From a virus, in the IMG/VR virus record IMGVR_UViG_3300030380_001590, positions 1 to 27,703 of that record: a stretch of 27,703 bases of DNA. The stretch is one strand, 5' to 3'. The translations under genes and the position numbers were made by a program. Numbering within the stretch: the stretch's first letter is position 1; each line of letters starts with the position of its first letter. The notes under the pieces were generated by a model that ran no database searches, was not told where the DNA came from, and saw only the letters and a list, made by a program, of their open reading frames with translations. Shown piece after piece: positions 3,596 to 16,983 of the stretch.

Positions 3596-3740
3596 CCTTC
3601 TCTCTCTTACCCCAATATACTAAATGAAATGCCTCACACTGTGGACAAGTTAAATTTGTCACTATCTCATGATCCTCATCATCTTCACAATCGTGATCGC
3701 CACCCCAGATTAGTTCTGTATGGCAATTATAACACTTCAC
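3555..3740 (-). CDS. Small zinc-ribbon protein
   Basis: 61 aa with two CxxC knuckles (C3/C6 and C32/C35) separated by an acidic Asp/Glu-rich stretch, then a basic tail: a rubredoxin-like zinc ribbon. The start is GTG, and it overlaps the methylase stop as GTGA, so translation is coupled. Such mini zinc ribbons recur in marine phage replication modules but have no assigned reaction. Nucleic-acid or protein binding is inferred from the fold alone. Confidence 0.75.
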   Translation of the reverse strand: MKCYNCHTELIWGGDHDCEDDEDHEIVTNLTCPQCEAFHLVYWGKREKDEQGERQKIKSNR

Positions 3741-4159
3741 TTGTCACCTCTAAATATCACAACAGCAGACGGAAACGGTGCTGTACCTTTGTTAGAAAAA
3801 CTTAGTCTACCTCTCAAAAACCTTACTTCTCCCTTGAAACAGTAATCATGCCAATACGCTGTGTCTGTCCTAGCAGGGATTAAACACACCACTGTCGCAC
3901 CTCTTTTACTTTCTGTATAGGCTTTTTCTACCCAATGTTTGATTGCCCTACCATATGGAGGGTTCATAAACACAGTGTCGTCAGACCAATCCTGTTGTAA
4001 TCCGTCATCTTCTGCTGTATAGTATTTATCACACAGTGCAGAAGACTCTGTACAGCACGGATCAAGTGTAAATTGAAACTCTTTATGTAGCTTGTCAAAC
4101 AAGTCTTTTGGTGTGTACCACTCGTTGCTGTTACTAGAAAATAAACCTTTGTTAATCAT
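3737..4159 (-). CDS. Phage DNA N6-adenine methyltransferase (Dam family)
   Basis: 140 aa from the ATG at 4157-4159; a TTG one codon earlier is less likely. The protein carries the hallmarks of the short phage Dam family: an N-terminal NEWYTP (12-17), LDPCC (32-36), the catalytic MNPPYG (65-70, DPPY class), and a C-terminal RGRLSF ... PFPSAVVIF. It would transfer a methyl group from S-adenosylmethionine to adenine N6, protecting phage DNA from host restriction or marking it. The length is typical and no motif is missing. It overlaps the upstream nuclease-like gene by 8 nt. Confidence 0.9.
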   Translation of the reverse strand: MINKGLFSSNSNEWYTPKDLFDKLHKEFQFTLDPCCTESSALCDKYYTAEDDGLQQDWSDDTVFMNPPYGRAIKHWVEKAYTESKRGATVVCLIPARTDTAYWHDYCFKGEVRFLRGRLSFSNKGTAPFPSAVVIFRGDK

Positions 4160-4697
4160 CAATCCTGTCCAATTGTAATTTAGTAATGTCCTTATGTTTT
4201 ACATCCACATGAAAAAACGGTTCTTTCAAATGTGGTGCGTCCACATGCCGTGAGTTCTGTATAGTCTGTACAGGACTTATCTCTAATACATCATGTGGAA
4301 TAAACCACCCTTGATCCAAATGTCTGTTCAGTACGACAAATGTCAGCTGATATGGTTTGATAAATTCAGGCAAGTTATTATCCTGTGCAAACTCTTTTGC
4401 ATTATTTGTCTCGTGGTAAAATTTGTCAATCAATCTTTGTTTACGCTGTGGTATCCTAACCTCTTTCCAATTGTCATTCCATACCTTACCCCATTGATTT
4501 TTAATTTCTACCTCCCAGAAACTCACACAGCCAGATGGTGTTAGGGTCGACAAGTCCCATGAATAATTTTCTGTGTCGTTTAATATTTTATGGTCTCTGC
4601 TGTGTAGATACTTTTTAAGCACAGCCTTCGCCTTACCGTCATTTGCCATATAGGATAATCTGTTAAACCTACGGTTTTGGTGTCTTCTGATTAACAT
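4152..4697 (-). CDS. Probable PD-(D/E)XK-fold nuclease
   Basis: 181 aa from the ATG at 4695-4697, which has AGGAGG seven bases upstream; a TTG two codons earlier lacks that spacing. Residues 45-70 hold an Asp in YSWDLS (D48) and, on the next strand, WEVEIK (E64-x-K66), the D...ExK pattern of PD-(D/E)XK nucleases. A downstream IPQRKQRL resembles the conserved basic segment in phage members of this group. A Holliday-junction resolvase or recombination nuclease would suit the replication operon, but the specific role is inferred. The 5' end overlaps the upstream small gene by 29 nt. Confidence 0.5.
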   Translation of the reverse strand: MLIRRHQNRRFNRLSYMANDGKAKAVLKKYLHSRDHKILNDTENYSWDLSTLTPSGCVSFWEVEIKNQWGKVWNDNWKEVRIPQRKQRLIDKFYHETNNAKEFAQDNNLPEFIKPYQLTFVVLNRHLDQGWFIPHDVLEISPVQTIQNSRHVDAPHLKEPFFHVDVKHKDITKLQLDRIDD

Positions 4698-8022: not shown

Positions 8023-9087
8023 ATGACAACTACAACTAATACAAATGATGTAATGGGAGTTATCAAACCCACTACTAACATTCACAACAATATAGACGAT
8101 CTATCTTTTTTTGATTTCAAAGTTGAAAAGAGACCGTTGTTTTTTGAGAGTACAGAGAAAGATACTTCTGTACATATCTATCCAGATGAAGAACACGCTA
8201 ATATTATGACTGAAATAAAGGGTAAACACGCTGTAGTCAGAGCTGATACCAATCAATGTTTAGGAGTGCATGGGAGAACTTATAAGATTGTTCCACATAT
8301 TGATGTCTATAAGAGACACGCTGAATCTATAAAGAATAGTAGTGCTTATGACCCAGAGCAAATAGAGATTATAGACCAATTATGGGATAAGGGAGCTAAA
8401 GCACGTAGAACTATACACTTTCTAAATCATACTAAACGTGTTTCAGAGAGTGATGTTGTAACTATGCGTTCTGATACTTTTAACAGTTTAGATGGTTCAT
8501 TTGCATTTCAAGTATTTTCTGGAATGTATAGAGCATTATGTTTAAACACTTTGGTATTTGGAGGAGAGAAGTTTTACCACAGCAAACAGAAACACACTTC
8601 TAACATTAACTATGCTAGTGCTGTTTCTAAGATTGCTAATTCTGTAGACATGTACAATAGGGACTACGACAAGTTATGTAATTGGAGGGATACCAAAGTA
8701 ACTGACGAGCAAGTGGCAATGCTGTTTGCAAATACCATTGCTAAGAGAAAATCAGAGTCTACTACAGTTATTAAAGATGCTTTAAAAGAAGAGGGTGTAG
8801 AACTAAAACAGTTAATCAATGTTAAACTAAATGACTTTCTAATGCACCAATACGGTAAAGAAAAAGAGTCACTTGGTGGAACGTTGTACGCTGTATACAA
8901 TGCTTTAACACATTGGAGTACGCATACGGATAGTAGTTGGGAACGTACCAACACTAAAGGTGAAACTGTCACAGCGTATACTTCTAGGAATGGTTCGAAT
9001 GTTGGTTCTGTACAGATTGAGAGAGAGAACAAGGTTCGTACTTGTTTAGATTCTGACCATTGGCACGAATTGTCAGCAGTAGCTTAG
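8023..9087 (+). CDS. DUF932 family phage/plasmid-like protein
   Basis: 354 aa, the largest protein of the rightward early arm, with its own strong promoter and GGAAGGAAAATAATC before the ATG. The arrangement ('VVRADTNQCLGVHGRTYKIV' near 70-90, MYRALCLNTLVFGG near 170, then a helical half rich in Asn/Lys) matches the DUF932 family found in phages and plasmids. The biochemical role is not established; abundance and operator control suggest high-level early or middle expression. No signal peptide or TM helix. Confidence 0.8.
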   Translation: MTTTTNTNDVMGVIKPTTNIHNNIDDLSFFDFKVEKRPLFFESTEKDTSVHIYPDEEHANIMTEIKGKHAVVRADTNQCLGVHGRTYKIVPHIDVYKRHAESIKNSSAYDPEQIEIIDQLWDKGAKARRTIHFLNHTKRVSESDVVTMRSDTFNSLDGSFAFQVFSGMYRALCLNTLVFGGEKFYHSKQKHTSNINYASAVSKIANSVDMYNRDYDKLCNWRDTKVTDEQVAMLFANTIAKRKSESTTVIKDALKEEGVELKQLINVKLNDFLMHQYGKEKESLGGTLYAVYNALTHWSTHTDSSWERTNTKGETVTAYTSRNGSNVGSVQIERENKVRTCLDSDHWHELSAVA

Positions 9088-11771: not shown

Positions 11772-12072
11772 ACAAGAAAGATTGTTTGAAGAGTATAATA
11801 GAAAAAAAGATGCAGAAAAAATGGGAAATATAGAAGCTGAGATTCAAGCACAAGATCCTTTTTATAAAAGACAACTGCAGAGAAGACAAGATAGAATGAT
11901 GAGAGATAGGCTTGATAAGGAAGGTATTGAATTAGATTTACCATTGGAAGAAAGAGAATATGAGGTAAAGAAAAAAAAGAAGAAAAAGAAAAATTTAGTT
12001 GTACGCTACGAACATAAAAAAGGAAGTAATAAAGCATACGCAAAAAGTCCTAGACCAGTAAAAACAGTATGA
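11764..12072 (+). CDS. Highly charged helical protein, 102 aa
   Basis: Glu/Arg/Lys-rich throughout with a run of eight Lys (about 69-76, coded by an A-rich tract where polymerase or ribosome slippage is possible) and a basic C-terminus. GAGGGAGG lies upstream and the stop overlaps the next ATG (ATGA). Probably a nucleic-acid-binding or packaging-associated protein, judged only from charge and position. Confidence 0.62.
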   Translation: MDEQERLFEEYNRKKDAEKMGNIEAEIQAQDPFYKRQLQRRQDRMMRDRLDKEGIELDLPLEEREYEVKKKKKKKKNLVVRYEHKKGSNKAYAKSPRPVKTV

Positions 12073-12224
12073 GCATAGTCTGTTTAGTATTAGATTTTGT
12101 AACTAGGAAGTATTACACAGTTAGCGAACTGCAAAAGATATATAAAGAGAGAGAAGAGAAAAAGAAACAGCAACCGTTTAACTCGAAAGAGTCGGAAGTA
12201 GGGAAAACCGAAGAAACGCACTAA
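12069..12224 (+). CDS. Small protein, 51 aa, whose 3' end contains the riboswitch
   Basis: MSIVCLVLDFVTRKYYTVSE followed by a charged tail. The start overlaps the upstream stop (ATGA). Its last 17 codons (12174-12224) coincide with the glutamine-riboswitch fold, so either the codons were shaped by the RNA or the frame is open by chance. The N-terminal half looks like real coding sequence. No family recognised. Confidence 0.5.
   Translation: MSIVCLVLDFVTRKYYTVSELQKIYKEREEKKKQQPFNSKESEVGKTEETH
12175..12219 (+). ncRNA. Glutamine-II riboswitch (downstream-peptide motif)
   Basis: The core matches the downstream-peptide consensus in order: CGTTT (12175-12179) pairing with AAACG (12214-12218); a hairpin ACTC-GAAA-GAGT (12181-12192) with a GNRA loop; the invariant CGGAAGTAGG (12193-12202); CCGAAG (12208-12213); then the conserved C after the P1 stem. 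Relative to the usual CGUUCA...GGAACG, the helix carries a compensatory U-A pair (CGUUUA...AAACG). Known members bind L-glutamine and lie ahead of very short ORFs; here a 35-codon ORF with AGGAGG follows at 12245. Confidence 0.88.
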
Positions 12225-12244
12225 CTTTAATTAGGAGGTGTGTT

Positions 12245-12352
12245 ATGAACAGTCAAACATTGTACTGTTATTTAAAACAAAAAAAAGAAAGAAAAGTAAA
12301 ACTATTAAAAAAATTATTTTACGAGAGAATAAAAAATGCCACATTACACTAA
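12245..12352 (+). CDS. Downstream peptide controlled by the riboswitch, 35 aa
   Basis: ATG with a strong AGGAGG (12233-12238) six bases upstream, 25 nt after the riboswitch core, exactly the genetic setting that gave the downstream-peptide RNA its name. The product (MNSQTLYCYLKQKKERKVKL, then LKKLFYERIKNATLH) is short, Lys-rich and probably one amphipathic helix. In cyanobacteria some riboswitch-controlled small proteins inhibit nitrogen-assimilation enzymes; whether this phage peptide does so is unknown. The end overlaps the next gene by 17 nt. Confidence 0.65.
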   Translation: MNSQTLYCYLKQKKERKVKLLKKLFYERIKNATLH

Positions 12353-12497
12353 ACCACTTAGAAAAATTATAAAAGGATTGAATAAAGCATCTCGTTTACA
12401 CGCTGGACAGGCTAAAAAACTAAGTGAGATAGAGAAAGACCAAAGAAAAAGATATGCTAATGCACATGTTAGAAAAAGGTCTTCAAAAAGAGGTTAG
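12336..12497 (+). CDS. Small basic protein, 53 aa
   Basis: MPHYTKPLRKIIKGLNKASR, then LHAGQAKKLSEIEKDQRKRY and an Arg/Lys-rich end. More than a third of the residues are basic, suggesting DNA or RNA binding or packaging with the genome. The overlapping position in a tight gene string supports it. No family name known to me. Confidence 0.6.
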   Translation: MPHYTKPLRKIIKGLNKASRLHAGQAKKLSEIEKDQRKRYANAHVRKRSSKRG

Positions 12498-12530
12498 AAT
12501 GCTTAACAGAGGAAGGGAGAATATAGGCAT

Positions 12531-13277
12531 ATGGTTGATCCAGTTACGGCACTGGCTACGGCAACAGCAGCCTTTAATGTTATTAAGAAAGGCTTTTCAG
12601 TGGGTAAGGATATCGAAAGCATGTATGGAGATGTTGGTCGATGGATGGGTGCGTGCTCAGATATCGGACAGGCTCAAAAGATGTCGCAAAAGCCTCCGCT
12701 ATTTAAAAAGATATTTGCGGGTGCGTCTATTGAAGAGGAGGCGTTAAATGCTTTTGCAGCTAAGAAAAAAGCTCAAACAATGGAGAATGAACTTAGGAAT
12801 TTCATTAACCTTGCACATGGGCCGAATGCATGGAATGAACTTTTGCAAATGCAAGGAAAAATTAGAAAACAAAGACAAGAGATGATTTATAAACAGCAAG
12901 AGAGACAAAGAAAAATATTAGAAATATCTTCGTTAGCAGTGGTAGCAATAATAGCAGCAGCTTTGATGATATGGATTGCTTCTGCAGTAGCTAGTAAGGT
13001 CAAAGCACACGAACTCTGTGGAGAGTTCCAAACGGGCTACGCCATCTGTATAAACGAAGGGTACGATCAAGCACATGCCAGTATGTTTAACAAGAGGTTT
13101 CCTAAACACGAGAGATATATAAGTTGTAAACTTGCACAGTTTAGGCCTTACCTAGATAACAGCAACGGTATGAAAGGTATGCAGTGTAGATACAGATTTC
13201 CTAATCAGGATAGTTTTACTATTGTTACCTATGAGGGTATGTGCCCTGAACAGTTGACATGCACGGTGAGTAATTGA
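12531..13277 (+). CDS. Conserved marine-phage protein with one TM helix, 248 aa
   Basis: GGAAGGGAG lies about 10 nt before the ATG. Residues 1-125 are a soluble helical domain (start MVDPVTALATATAAFNVIKK), residues about 130-152 a TM helix (SLAVVAIIAAALMIWIASAV), and the rest a Cys-containing domain (at least six Cys, for example LCGEFQTGYAIC), which would be disulfide-bonded if it lies outside the cytoplasm. I recognise the start as recurring in marine phages, but it has no assigned function. It lies ahead of TerL. Confidence 0.7.
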   Translation: MVDPVTALATATAAFNVIKKGFSVGKDIESMYGDVGRWMGACSDIGQAQKMSQKPPLFKKIFAGASIEEEALNAFAAKKKAQTMENELRNFINLAHGPNAWNELLQMQGKIRKQRQEMIYKQQERQRKILEISSLAVVAIIAAALMIWIASAVASKVKAHELCGEFQTGYAICINEGYDQAHASMFNKRFPKHERYISCKLAQFRPYLDNSNGMKGMQCRYRFPNQDSFTIVTYEGMCPEQLTCTVSN

Positions 13278-13501
13278 GAAGAACAACATCAACCATCCCA
13301 TTTGGATATGAACTATCAGAGGACGGAAAAGAATATATTCCTGTAGATAAGGAATTAGAATTATTAGAAAAGGCGTTTACATTCGCAAACAGCTGTGGGC
13401 CTGCAAAAGCTGCGAGATGGCTAAGTACAGCATCGGGTAGAAGAATATCAAATCCCGGTCTGACAAAGCGAATGAAAATAGGTGTACACTTAGATAGATG
13501 A
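13274..13501 (+). CDS. Recombinase-type HTH protein directly before TerL, 75 aa
   Basis: Starts at TTG overlapping the upstream TGA, and its own TGA overlaps the TerL ATG. The pattern IPFGYELSEDGKEYIPV, then AARWLSTASGRRIS and GLTKR is that of the DNA-binding 'recombinase' domain of large serine recombinases (PFGY...W L...), without the catalytic domain. Marine phages often carry this mini-domain fused to or just before TerL, so it may help recognise DNA during packaging. An alternative TerS candidate. Confidence 0.6.
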   Translation: MRRTTSTIPFGYELSEDGKEYIPVDKELELLEKAFTFANSCGPAKAARWLSTASGRRISNPGLTKRMKIGVHLDR

Positions 13502-15186: not shown

Positions 15187-16983
15187 ATGGCAAAAGAATT
15201 TGAAATAGGAACAGGTGATCAAGATTTAGGTAATAAACCTATAAGAGAAACTTTTGAAAATTTAAAAAGCAGACCTAGTTTTAAAAAAACTGTTGAAAGA
15301 TTAGATTTACAAAAGTTTGATTTAAAAAATGGTCGTAAAGGTATTTCTTTATTAGATTTAACTCCTAATGAAATATTAAAAAGTCCTACTATATTAGAAA
15401 AAATATTAATAGATCATACTAGTGAAATACAAAAATTAGAAAAAGAAAGAATAAAAAGAGGGAAAGTTGCACAACCTTTTTTATTTCCTATACTAAGAGA
15501 TTTAGATCAAGCTATAAATACAGCTTTAAAGCAAACAGGGCAAAAATTATCGCCTGTTCAAAGTTTGTTAAAAACAAATATAGGAAAAGAACAATTTGAA
15601 GTTCTTACAAAAAAATCAGGTGTTATGCAAACTAAAAATTATTTTTTTCCTGCTAATTATTATGATAAAGTTGGTAAAGCTATTTCTACTCTTAAAGGAG
15701 AACAAAAAAACGTAGCTTTAATGACTTTTTTAGGTGGTTTTAGAAGAGCTGATTTAGATAATTTAAAAATACAAAATATAGATTTAGATACTGGTGTAAT
15801 ATATTCCACAAAAACAAAGACAGGATTAGTAAATGGTGTTCTATCACCTCCTATGTTAGATGTTTTAAAAATGCAAATTGGAGACAGGACATCTGGAAAG
15901 GTATTTTTAAATAGTATGAATGAAAATGCATCCGGTATAAATTCAGTTTTAAAAAAGTTTTTTCCGGGTAAGGTAAAAGCAAAAAGTCCTTTTGAAGAAT
16001 CACCAAAATTAATATCAGTAACTTTACAAAGTTTAAGACATGCTAATGAAGAGTTATACAATGAAGAAGGCATATCAGGAGCTGATAAAAATAGAAGAAT
16101 AGCTACTCTTCGTGCTTTATCTACTCAATTTAGTGGTGCACAGTACGGAGAAGCAAATTTAGCTGACGGTAGAGCAAAAGAAATGGCTACTAGAATGAAC
16201 GCTAAATTAAGTGGTTATGTAGGGTATGTTAGTCCTGCTGAGTTTTTAAAATCTGTAGGTATTCCAGAAAATAGCATATCAGATGAAACTAGAAAAATAG
16301 TTGTAAATAAAGGTGATTTAACAAAAACTAAATATGTAAATTACCTTAATCAAAAAGACCCTAATTTTATAAAAAATTTACCCGATACTGGTAATAAATT
16401 AGATGCACCAATAGAAACTAAAAATATTATGCCTACCAGTGGTCTTGCCTCTGCTCAAATGGATAGAGATAGAATAGCTTTAGAAAAAGAGAATATTAAA
16501 GCTCAACAAGAGTTAGATGAATTAAAAATAAAAACAACTCCTGTTGAAAGACCTGTAAAAATAGACGAATCAAAAGTAGATAAAACATTCAAGTCAAACT
16601 TTGAAGAATTTGCTGCAAAGAATAGTTTAGACACAGGCACAAAAGAAAATAGAAGAATAGCATTTAAACAGTTTTTAAATAGTTTAAAAAAAGGATTACC
16701 TAGTATTGCAGGCGGAGGTGTTTTGGGCACTCTTTTCACAGGTCTTACTTATGATCCTGTGCAGGCAGAGGAAACTGGAGAAGATTTTGTGGCACAAACT
16801 ATAGGAGCAAGAGGTGCAACACCACCTAGACATGAAATGGAAGCATTAAACCCTGAAAGGCTTAAACAAATCAGAGGTGCAGACGTTGAATACGGCATTT
16901 CTAAAGACATAGAAGCAGAAAGAAAACAAAAAGAACAAGCAGAGCAGATGCAAGGAGTATTCCCTGAAGGATTCGGGGCGTAA
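15187..16983 (+). CDS. Tyrosine-recombinase-like protein within the virion gene cluster
   Basis: 598 aa. Residues about 175-325 resemble a tyrosine recombinase catalytic domain: ALMTFLGGFRRADLDNLKI (box I Arg 186), NIDLDTGVIYSTKTKTG (Lys 209/211 on the beta hairpin), then LQSLRHANEEL (the HxxR box with His replaced by Gln281; Arg284), and a candidate Tyr 320 at 36 residues after that Arg. About 250 residues follow, with a Lys/Glu-rich helix, a hydrophobic segment near 510-525 (SIAGGGVLGTLFTGL) and an acidic end. The gene is distinctly more AT-rich than TerL. It could be an active integrase, a virion-packaged recombinase or a repurposed fold. Confidence 0.55.
   Translation: MAKEFEIGTGDQDLGNKPIRETFENLKSRPSFKKTVERLDLQKFDLKNGRKGISLLDLTPNEILKSPTILEKILIDHTSEIQKLEKERIKRGKVAQPFLFPILRDLDQAINTALKQTGQKLSPVQSLLKTNIGKEQFEVLTKKSGVMQTKNYFFPANYYDKVGKAISTLKGEQKNVALMTFLGGFRRADLDNLKIQNIDLDTGVIYSTKTKTGLVNGVLSPPMLDVLKMQIGDRTSGKVFLNSMNENASGINSVLKKFFPGKVKAKSPFEESPKLISVTLQSLRHANEELYNEEGISGADKNRRIATLRALSTQFSGAQYGEANLADGRAKEMATRMNAKLSGYVGYVSPAEFLKSVGIPENSISDETRKIVVNKGDLTKTKYVNYLNQKDPNFIKNLPDTGNKLDAPIETKNIMPTSGLASAQMDRDRIALEKENIKAQQELDELKIKTTPVERPVKIDESKVDKTFKSNFEEFAAKNSLDTGTKENRRIAFKQFLNSLKKGLPSIAGGGVLGTLFTGLTYDPVQAEETGEDFVAQTIGARGATPPRHEMEALNPERLKQIRGADVEYGISKDIEAERKQKEQAEQMQGVFPEGFGA

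Follow-up and report, generated by a model that had tools for sequence, protein, structure and literature searches.

The viral record IMGVR_UViG_3300030380_001590 carries, among the packaging genes of a marine phage, a class I glutamine riboswitch aptamer placed directly in front of a 35-codon ORF for a small basic peptide. RNA and peptide ORF form a cassette. We consider it likely that this RNA is a translational ON switch for the peptide, which is predicted to be helical and which may act on a host nitrogen-assimilation protein. The analysis covers positions 1 to 27,703 of this record, a stretch of 27,703 nucleotides referred to as the window in the following.

The aptamer lies at 12173-12222 on the plus strand, where the Rfam model RF01739 (glnA, the class I glutamine aptamer) matches with 53.4 bits and an E-value of 2.8e-9, well above its gathering score of 35 bits. 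This is the sole Rfam match in the whole window, and the 34,431-base viral record holds one aptamer copy only. An earlier note had proposed that a phage of alphaproteobacterial type carries a glutamine-II riboswitch ahead of a short peptide, to be checked against both Rfam models. The glutamine riboswitch, the short peptide and the type of phage stand; the class has to be corrected to class I, since only the glnA model matches. A permissive scan of 12000-12500 recovered RF01739 again and gave no match to RF01704 (Downstream-peptide, class II) even at E<=1, which rules out the class II identity. The likeness to class II is that these RNAs also bind glutamine and precede short ORFs.

All conserved blocks of glnA RNA and its P1-P2-P3 architecture are found in the window copy. 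P1 is formed by 12175-12179/12214-12218, P2 by 12181-12184/12189-12192 and P3 by 12201-12202/12208-12209; the conserved block CGGAAGUA occupies 12193-12200, and alignment and pair counts recover the invariant blocks CGGAAGUAGG, CCGAAG and ACGCA. What sets this copy apart within the known glnA RNA class is its HMO-2011-type phage host, its direct junction to a micropeptide that is not of the DUF4278 type, and a fifth P1 pair that is U-A rather than C-G. The latter had been noticed before as a compensatory change and is real: among 50 viral aptamers (alignment A1) this pair is CG in 45, UA in three and GC in two, and it is never broken. Over all helices of these aptamers, 97.2% of the cells are paired, a value reached by none of 500 shuffles. 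Judged from this covariation and the Rfam match, the RNA at 12173-12222 is a real class I glutamine riboswitch aptamer, for which glutamine binding is predicted.

The riboswitch unit extends over about 12172-12247, plus the ORF up to 12352, and its predicted expression platform spans 12215-12244 on the plus strand. In the ligand-free fold of 12173-12262, the stretch 12215-12222 (AACGCACU) pairs with 12237-12244 (GGUGUGUU) at pair probabilities of 0.86-1.0, while that of P1 is close to zero. Of the five bases in the 3' strand of P1, four are taken up by this switch helix, which also covers the final GG of AGGAGG, the Shine-Dalgarno sequence at 12233-12238, and the spacer up to the ATG. P1 and the switch helix exclude each other, and a translational ON switch is hence predicted. 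At low glutamine, the P1 3' strand is computed to pair with the end of the Shine-Dalgarno sequence and the spacer, which would block ribosomes; with glutamine bound, P1 would form, the switch helix would be lost and the peptide would be made. The ON direction is read from this helix geometry and from the activation of expression by glutamine that is reported, as reviewed, for both riboswitch classes in cyanobacteria (PMC6316151). An intrinsic terminator was rejected as a platform, as none is found near the aptamer.

The same pairing can be followed across 89 distinct viral leaders, in which the two switch stretches pair better with each other than across leaders (-7.03 versus -5.97 kcal/mol, not reached in any of 5000 permutations; related leaders among the 89 are not independent). 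By leader group, own pairing beats cross pairing in 12 of 19; the seven groups that do not follow suggest that some leaders use another platform. When the aptamer is forced in a constrained fold, a residual pairing of four base pairs stays over part of the Shine-Dalgarno sequence, and keeping C12219 and A12220 out of any pair removes it in part only—both within energy models that cannot score the ligand-bound tertiary fold. This remainder could speak for the opposite direction, in which glutamine binding represses the peptide as a feedback, e.g., by C12221-U12222 and their neighbours pairing with the Shine-Dalgarno sequence. However, the full helix of eight pairs depends on the P1 strand and has more strength in the absence of ligand, and both glutamine classes are reported as activating in cyanobacteria (PMC6316151), so that we hold repression by glutamine to be quite improbable.

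Pattern scans and a search with the large terminase subunit yielded 15 further contigs with a window-type leader, 16 phages together with the window. The 72 nucleotides up to the ATG are identical in all 16 apart from the P3 loop, which reads GAAAA, GAAGA or AAATA. Three further phages (L122, L124 and L125), whose large terminase subunits are 97-98% identical, keep the same neighbours and have no aptamer anywhere in the record; their alignment to the window breaks off at 12161-12163 and picks up again at 12496-12514. On these comparisons, aptamer and peptide together are a cassette that is gained, lost and moved between phages.

Upstream, the aptamer overlaps the last 16 codons and the stop of a 51-amino acid ORF on the plus strand (12069-12224, stop at 12222-12224), as the earlier note had seen. 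It had taken this overlap as a possible coupling of glutamine sensing to upstream translation, in which ribosomes finishing the upstream ORF would unfold the aptamer. Under such a coupling, these ribosomes would melt both P1 and the switch helix, and the peptide would mainly follow upstream translation, with glutamine as a modulator. The upstream ORF indeed reads through the whole aptamer in one frame in 12 of the 16 phages, and in the window and 11 relatives its stop falls just past the aptamer, 20 nucleotides ahead of the next start. The remaining relatives argue against a conserved design. In L090 and L334, an indel shifts the upstream frame such that the stop falls inside the aptamer, while the RNA is unchanged; in L344, a different ORF precedes the aptamer, and in L337, aptamer and upstream ORF lie 541 nucleotides apart. 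The close relatives without aptamer (L122, L124 and L125) keep the ORF with a different Lys-rich tail, and most other phage aptamers have no real upstream gene overlapping them. Related phages that conserve the amino acids of this ORF and lose the RNA pairs would have pointed away from a riboswitch; the opposite is found, the RNA being kept and the overlap not. Conserved translational coupling through the upstream ORF is thus rejected as a general feature, and we regard control of the window peptide mainly by upstream translation as unlikely.

The micropeptide ORF (12245-12352, plus strand) starts behind the AGGAGG, just as the earlier note had described, and encodes the peptide MNSQTLYCYLKQKKERKVKLLKKLFYERIKNATLH with a net charge of +8 and homologues in the 15 other phage contigs. 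Its sequence speaks for coding constraint: synonymous change is saturated, and dN ranges from 0.23 to 0.45 over the first 17 codons (window versus L064, L090 and L127), and the start motif xQ(T/F)LYCxLKxK is kept despite this saturation. An AlphaFold2 model shows a single helix of residues 3-34 with a mean pLDDT of 92. PHROGs, NCBIfam and, above its cut-off, Pfam gave no family match—neither to DUF4278 nor to any curated family in Pfam or NCBIfam—, the PDB gave no related solved structure, and no INPHARED phage was found to encode this peptide at E<=10. A Fungal_TACC match in Pfam (0.007, below cut-off) was taken as compositional. A profile of window-type peptides does match the peptide of L042 (E 2.1e-4 against 20,777 decoys), which judged from its genes is probably a T4-like phage. 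The end of the micropeptide ORF is overlapped by a 53-amino acid ORF (12336-12497, plus strand); among the relatives examined, L344 alone has it together with the cassette (98% identical), and it is absent from the site in L064/L130, L090 and L127.

The genes around the cassette place the record. The small terminase subunit (11212, a weak match), the large terminase subunit (13498), the portal (17261) and the major capsid protein (23684) surround or follow it, and genes for a DnaB-like helicase and a primase are found on the other strand. The nearest named relatives, at about 50% protein identity, are the Pelagibacter phages HTVC115P, HTVC103P and HTVC033P, the Roseobacter CRP phages and the Puniceispirillum phage HMO-2011; megablast of the window against the INPHARED collection gave no match. 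The record is an HMO-2011-type phage, and the packaging-gene setting in an alphaproteobacterial-type phage described in the earlier note is borne out. Several other genes of the window deserve mention. At 12531-13277, adjoining the cassette, lies a possible membrane protein gene (MVDPxTA...); genes of this type adjoin an aptamer cassette in two phage groups and on opposite sides (here, and at L342:4064-4669 and L345:2282-2890). A 75-amino acid ORF at 13274-13501 abuts the large terminase gene and is kept in almost all relatives fetched; it appears recombinase-like by eye and has no Pfam match. The interval between large terminase and portal holds a 598-amino acid ORF (15187-16983) that weakly matches tyrosine integrases (phrog_1, E 1.3e-6; PF00589, 0.0074, below cut-off). 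A DUF932 protein is encoded at 8023-9087 on the plus strand and, next to the genes for primase and helicase, a Dam-type adenine methyltransferase at 3737-4162 on the minus strand.

Given the position of the cassette inside the packaging operon, the peptide might act on the phage itself or on the membrane—in lysis timing or as a part of the virion—rather than on host nitrogen, with glutamine reporting readiness for lysis, a role that has been speculated on for phage Melnitz (PMC9004378). The adjoining possible membrane protein gene and its distant relative beside the cassette of the L342/L345 phages fit such a role. On the contrary, the helix of the peptide is not significantly amphipathic (moment p 0.39), which leaves a membrane-active amphipathic helix without support, and a similar peptide is encoded in a bacterial chromosome at a motAB locus, away from recognisable phage genes. 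We hence treat a phage- or membrane-directed function as possible though rather doubtful, and an effect on host nitrogen metabolism as the preferred reading.

Aptamer–micropeptide units are found well beyond this phage group. At least 120 viral stretches carry the aptamer motif, mostly followed by short ORFs, whose products, with a median charge of 6.5, are more basic than those of 12,927 control ORFs taken from these loci, with a median of 2 (p 3e-34 by Mann-Whitney test, with related sequences not being independent). These short ORFs fall into several sequence families, some with the YRG repeat (DUF4278). In comparisons against 20,777 decoys, the peptides of the L326 group match that of the chromosomal contig L271 (E 0.0019), whereas window-type peptides reach only E 2 to 4 against Melnitz or L271; a single homologous family of all micropeptides is unsupported, as only the pairs window-type/L042 and L326 group/L271 stand out. 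In L271, a contig labelled Rhodospirillaceae, tandem aptamers precede a 35-amino acid ORF in the locus with motA and motB. Tandem glnA aptamers stand before micropeptide genes at L271:480-720, L265:930-1150, L299:3600-3740 and L280:1360-1455, in bacterial contigs labelled Rhodospirillaceae, Betaproteobacteria and Alphaproteobacteria. Several contigs labelled Betaproteobacteria, with no finer clade assigned, have aptamers before WxxYC micropeptides; OM43 genomes are reported to be without glutamine riboswitch (PMC9004378). No recognisable glutamine synthetase gene lies next to the chromosomal micropeptide genes in the loci inspected.

Viral glutamine riboswitches are known from Melnitz, Mosig and AG-345-P14 (PMC9004378) and from T4-like cyanophages (PMC9964418). 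A literature search, with subscription journals largely outside its scope, found no paper on these viral micropeptides or on a riboswitch of an HMO-2011-type phage. The methylophage Melnitz is a marine phage and carries the same RNA class as the window, but is a myophage, and its riboswitch has been published as controlling tmRNA (PMC9004378). Directly behind its RF01739 match (L352:1184-1232, MZ577097.1) come GGGGAG and a 32-amino acid basic ORF without annotation, MTLYQQWCYLKAQKEYRRRQKILMYFRIRLKG, the entire unit spanning L352:1184-1350. The aptamer lies beyond the Rfam tmRNA matches, although the annotated tmRNA feature runs into it. Standing directly before this ORF and outside those matches, it suggests the micropeptide as a more natural target than tmRNA. 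The likeness of the Melnitz peptide to that of the window is suggestive only (E 2).

For the function of the window peptide, the closest parallels are cyanobacterial; there, glutamine riboswitches control DUF4278 proteins and IF17, a factor that acts in the regulation of glutamine synthetase (PMC7760959, PMC6316151). Both gifB/IF17 of Synechocystis and the cyanobacterial DUF4278 micropeptides share with the window the glutamine riboswitch before a small protein, and charge-driven binding and an activating logic are reported for them, as reviewed (PMC6316151, PMC7760959). The window peptide differs in having neither DUF4278 nor detected similarity to a known family. By analogy with these proteins, an action on host nitrogen metabolism is plausible. 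At high glutamine, the peptide would probably bind a host nitrogen-assimilation protein, e.g., glutamine synthetase, by its charge; our best guess for its function is that it inhibits a nitrogen enzyme of the host.

The sensor and its switch are nearly unchanged in 16 phages, and similar units recur in phages unrelated to these and in chromosomes of marine bacteria; it hence seems that phages make peptides of this kind in line with the glutamine level of the cell. A wider proposal, which we put forward tentatively and with low confidence, is that unrelated marine phage lineages carry glutamine-switched micropeptides, in part derived from similarly designed regulators of the host, that clamp host nitrogen assimilation (e.g., at glutamine synthetase) when glutamine is high. 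If true, phages of proteobacteria would possess a viral equivalent of the IF17 circuit known from cyanobacteria.

The present results extend glutamine riboswitches to HMO-2011-type phages and make overlooked micropeptides the likeliest targets of viral glutamine riboswitches, rather than, e.g., tmRNA in Melnitz. The ON-switch model is now open to direct testing, and the set of viral and chromosomal peptides offers candidates that may regulate how the streamlined bacteria living at the ocean surface assimilate nitrogen.
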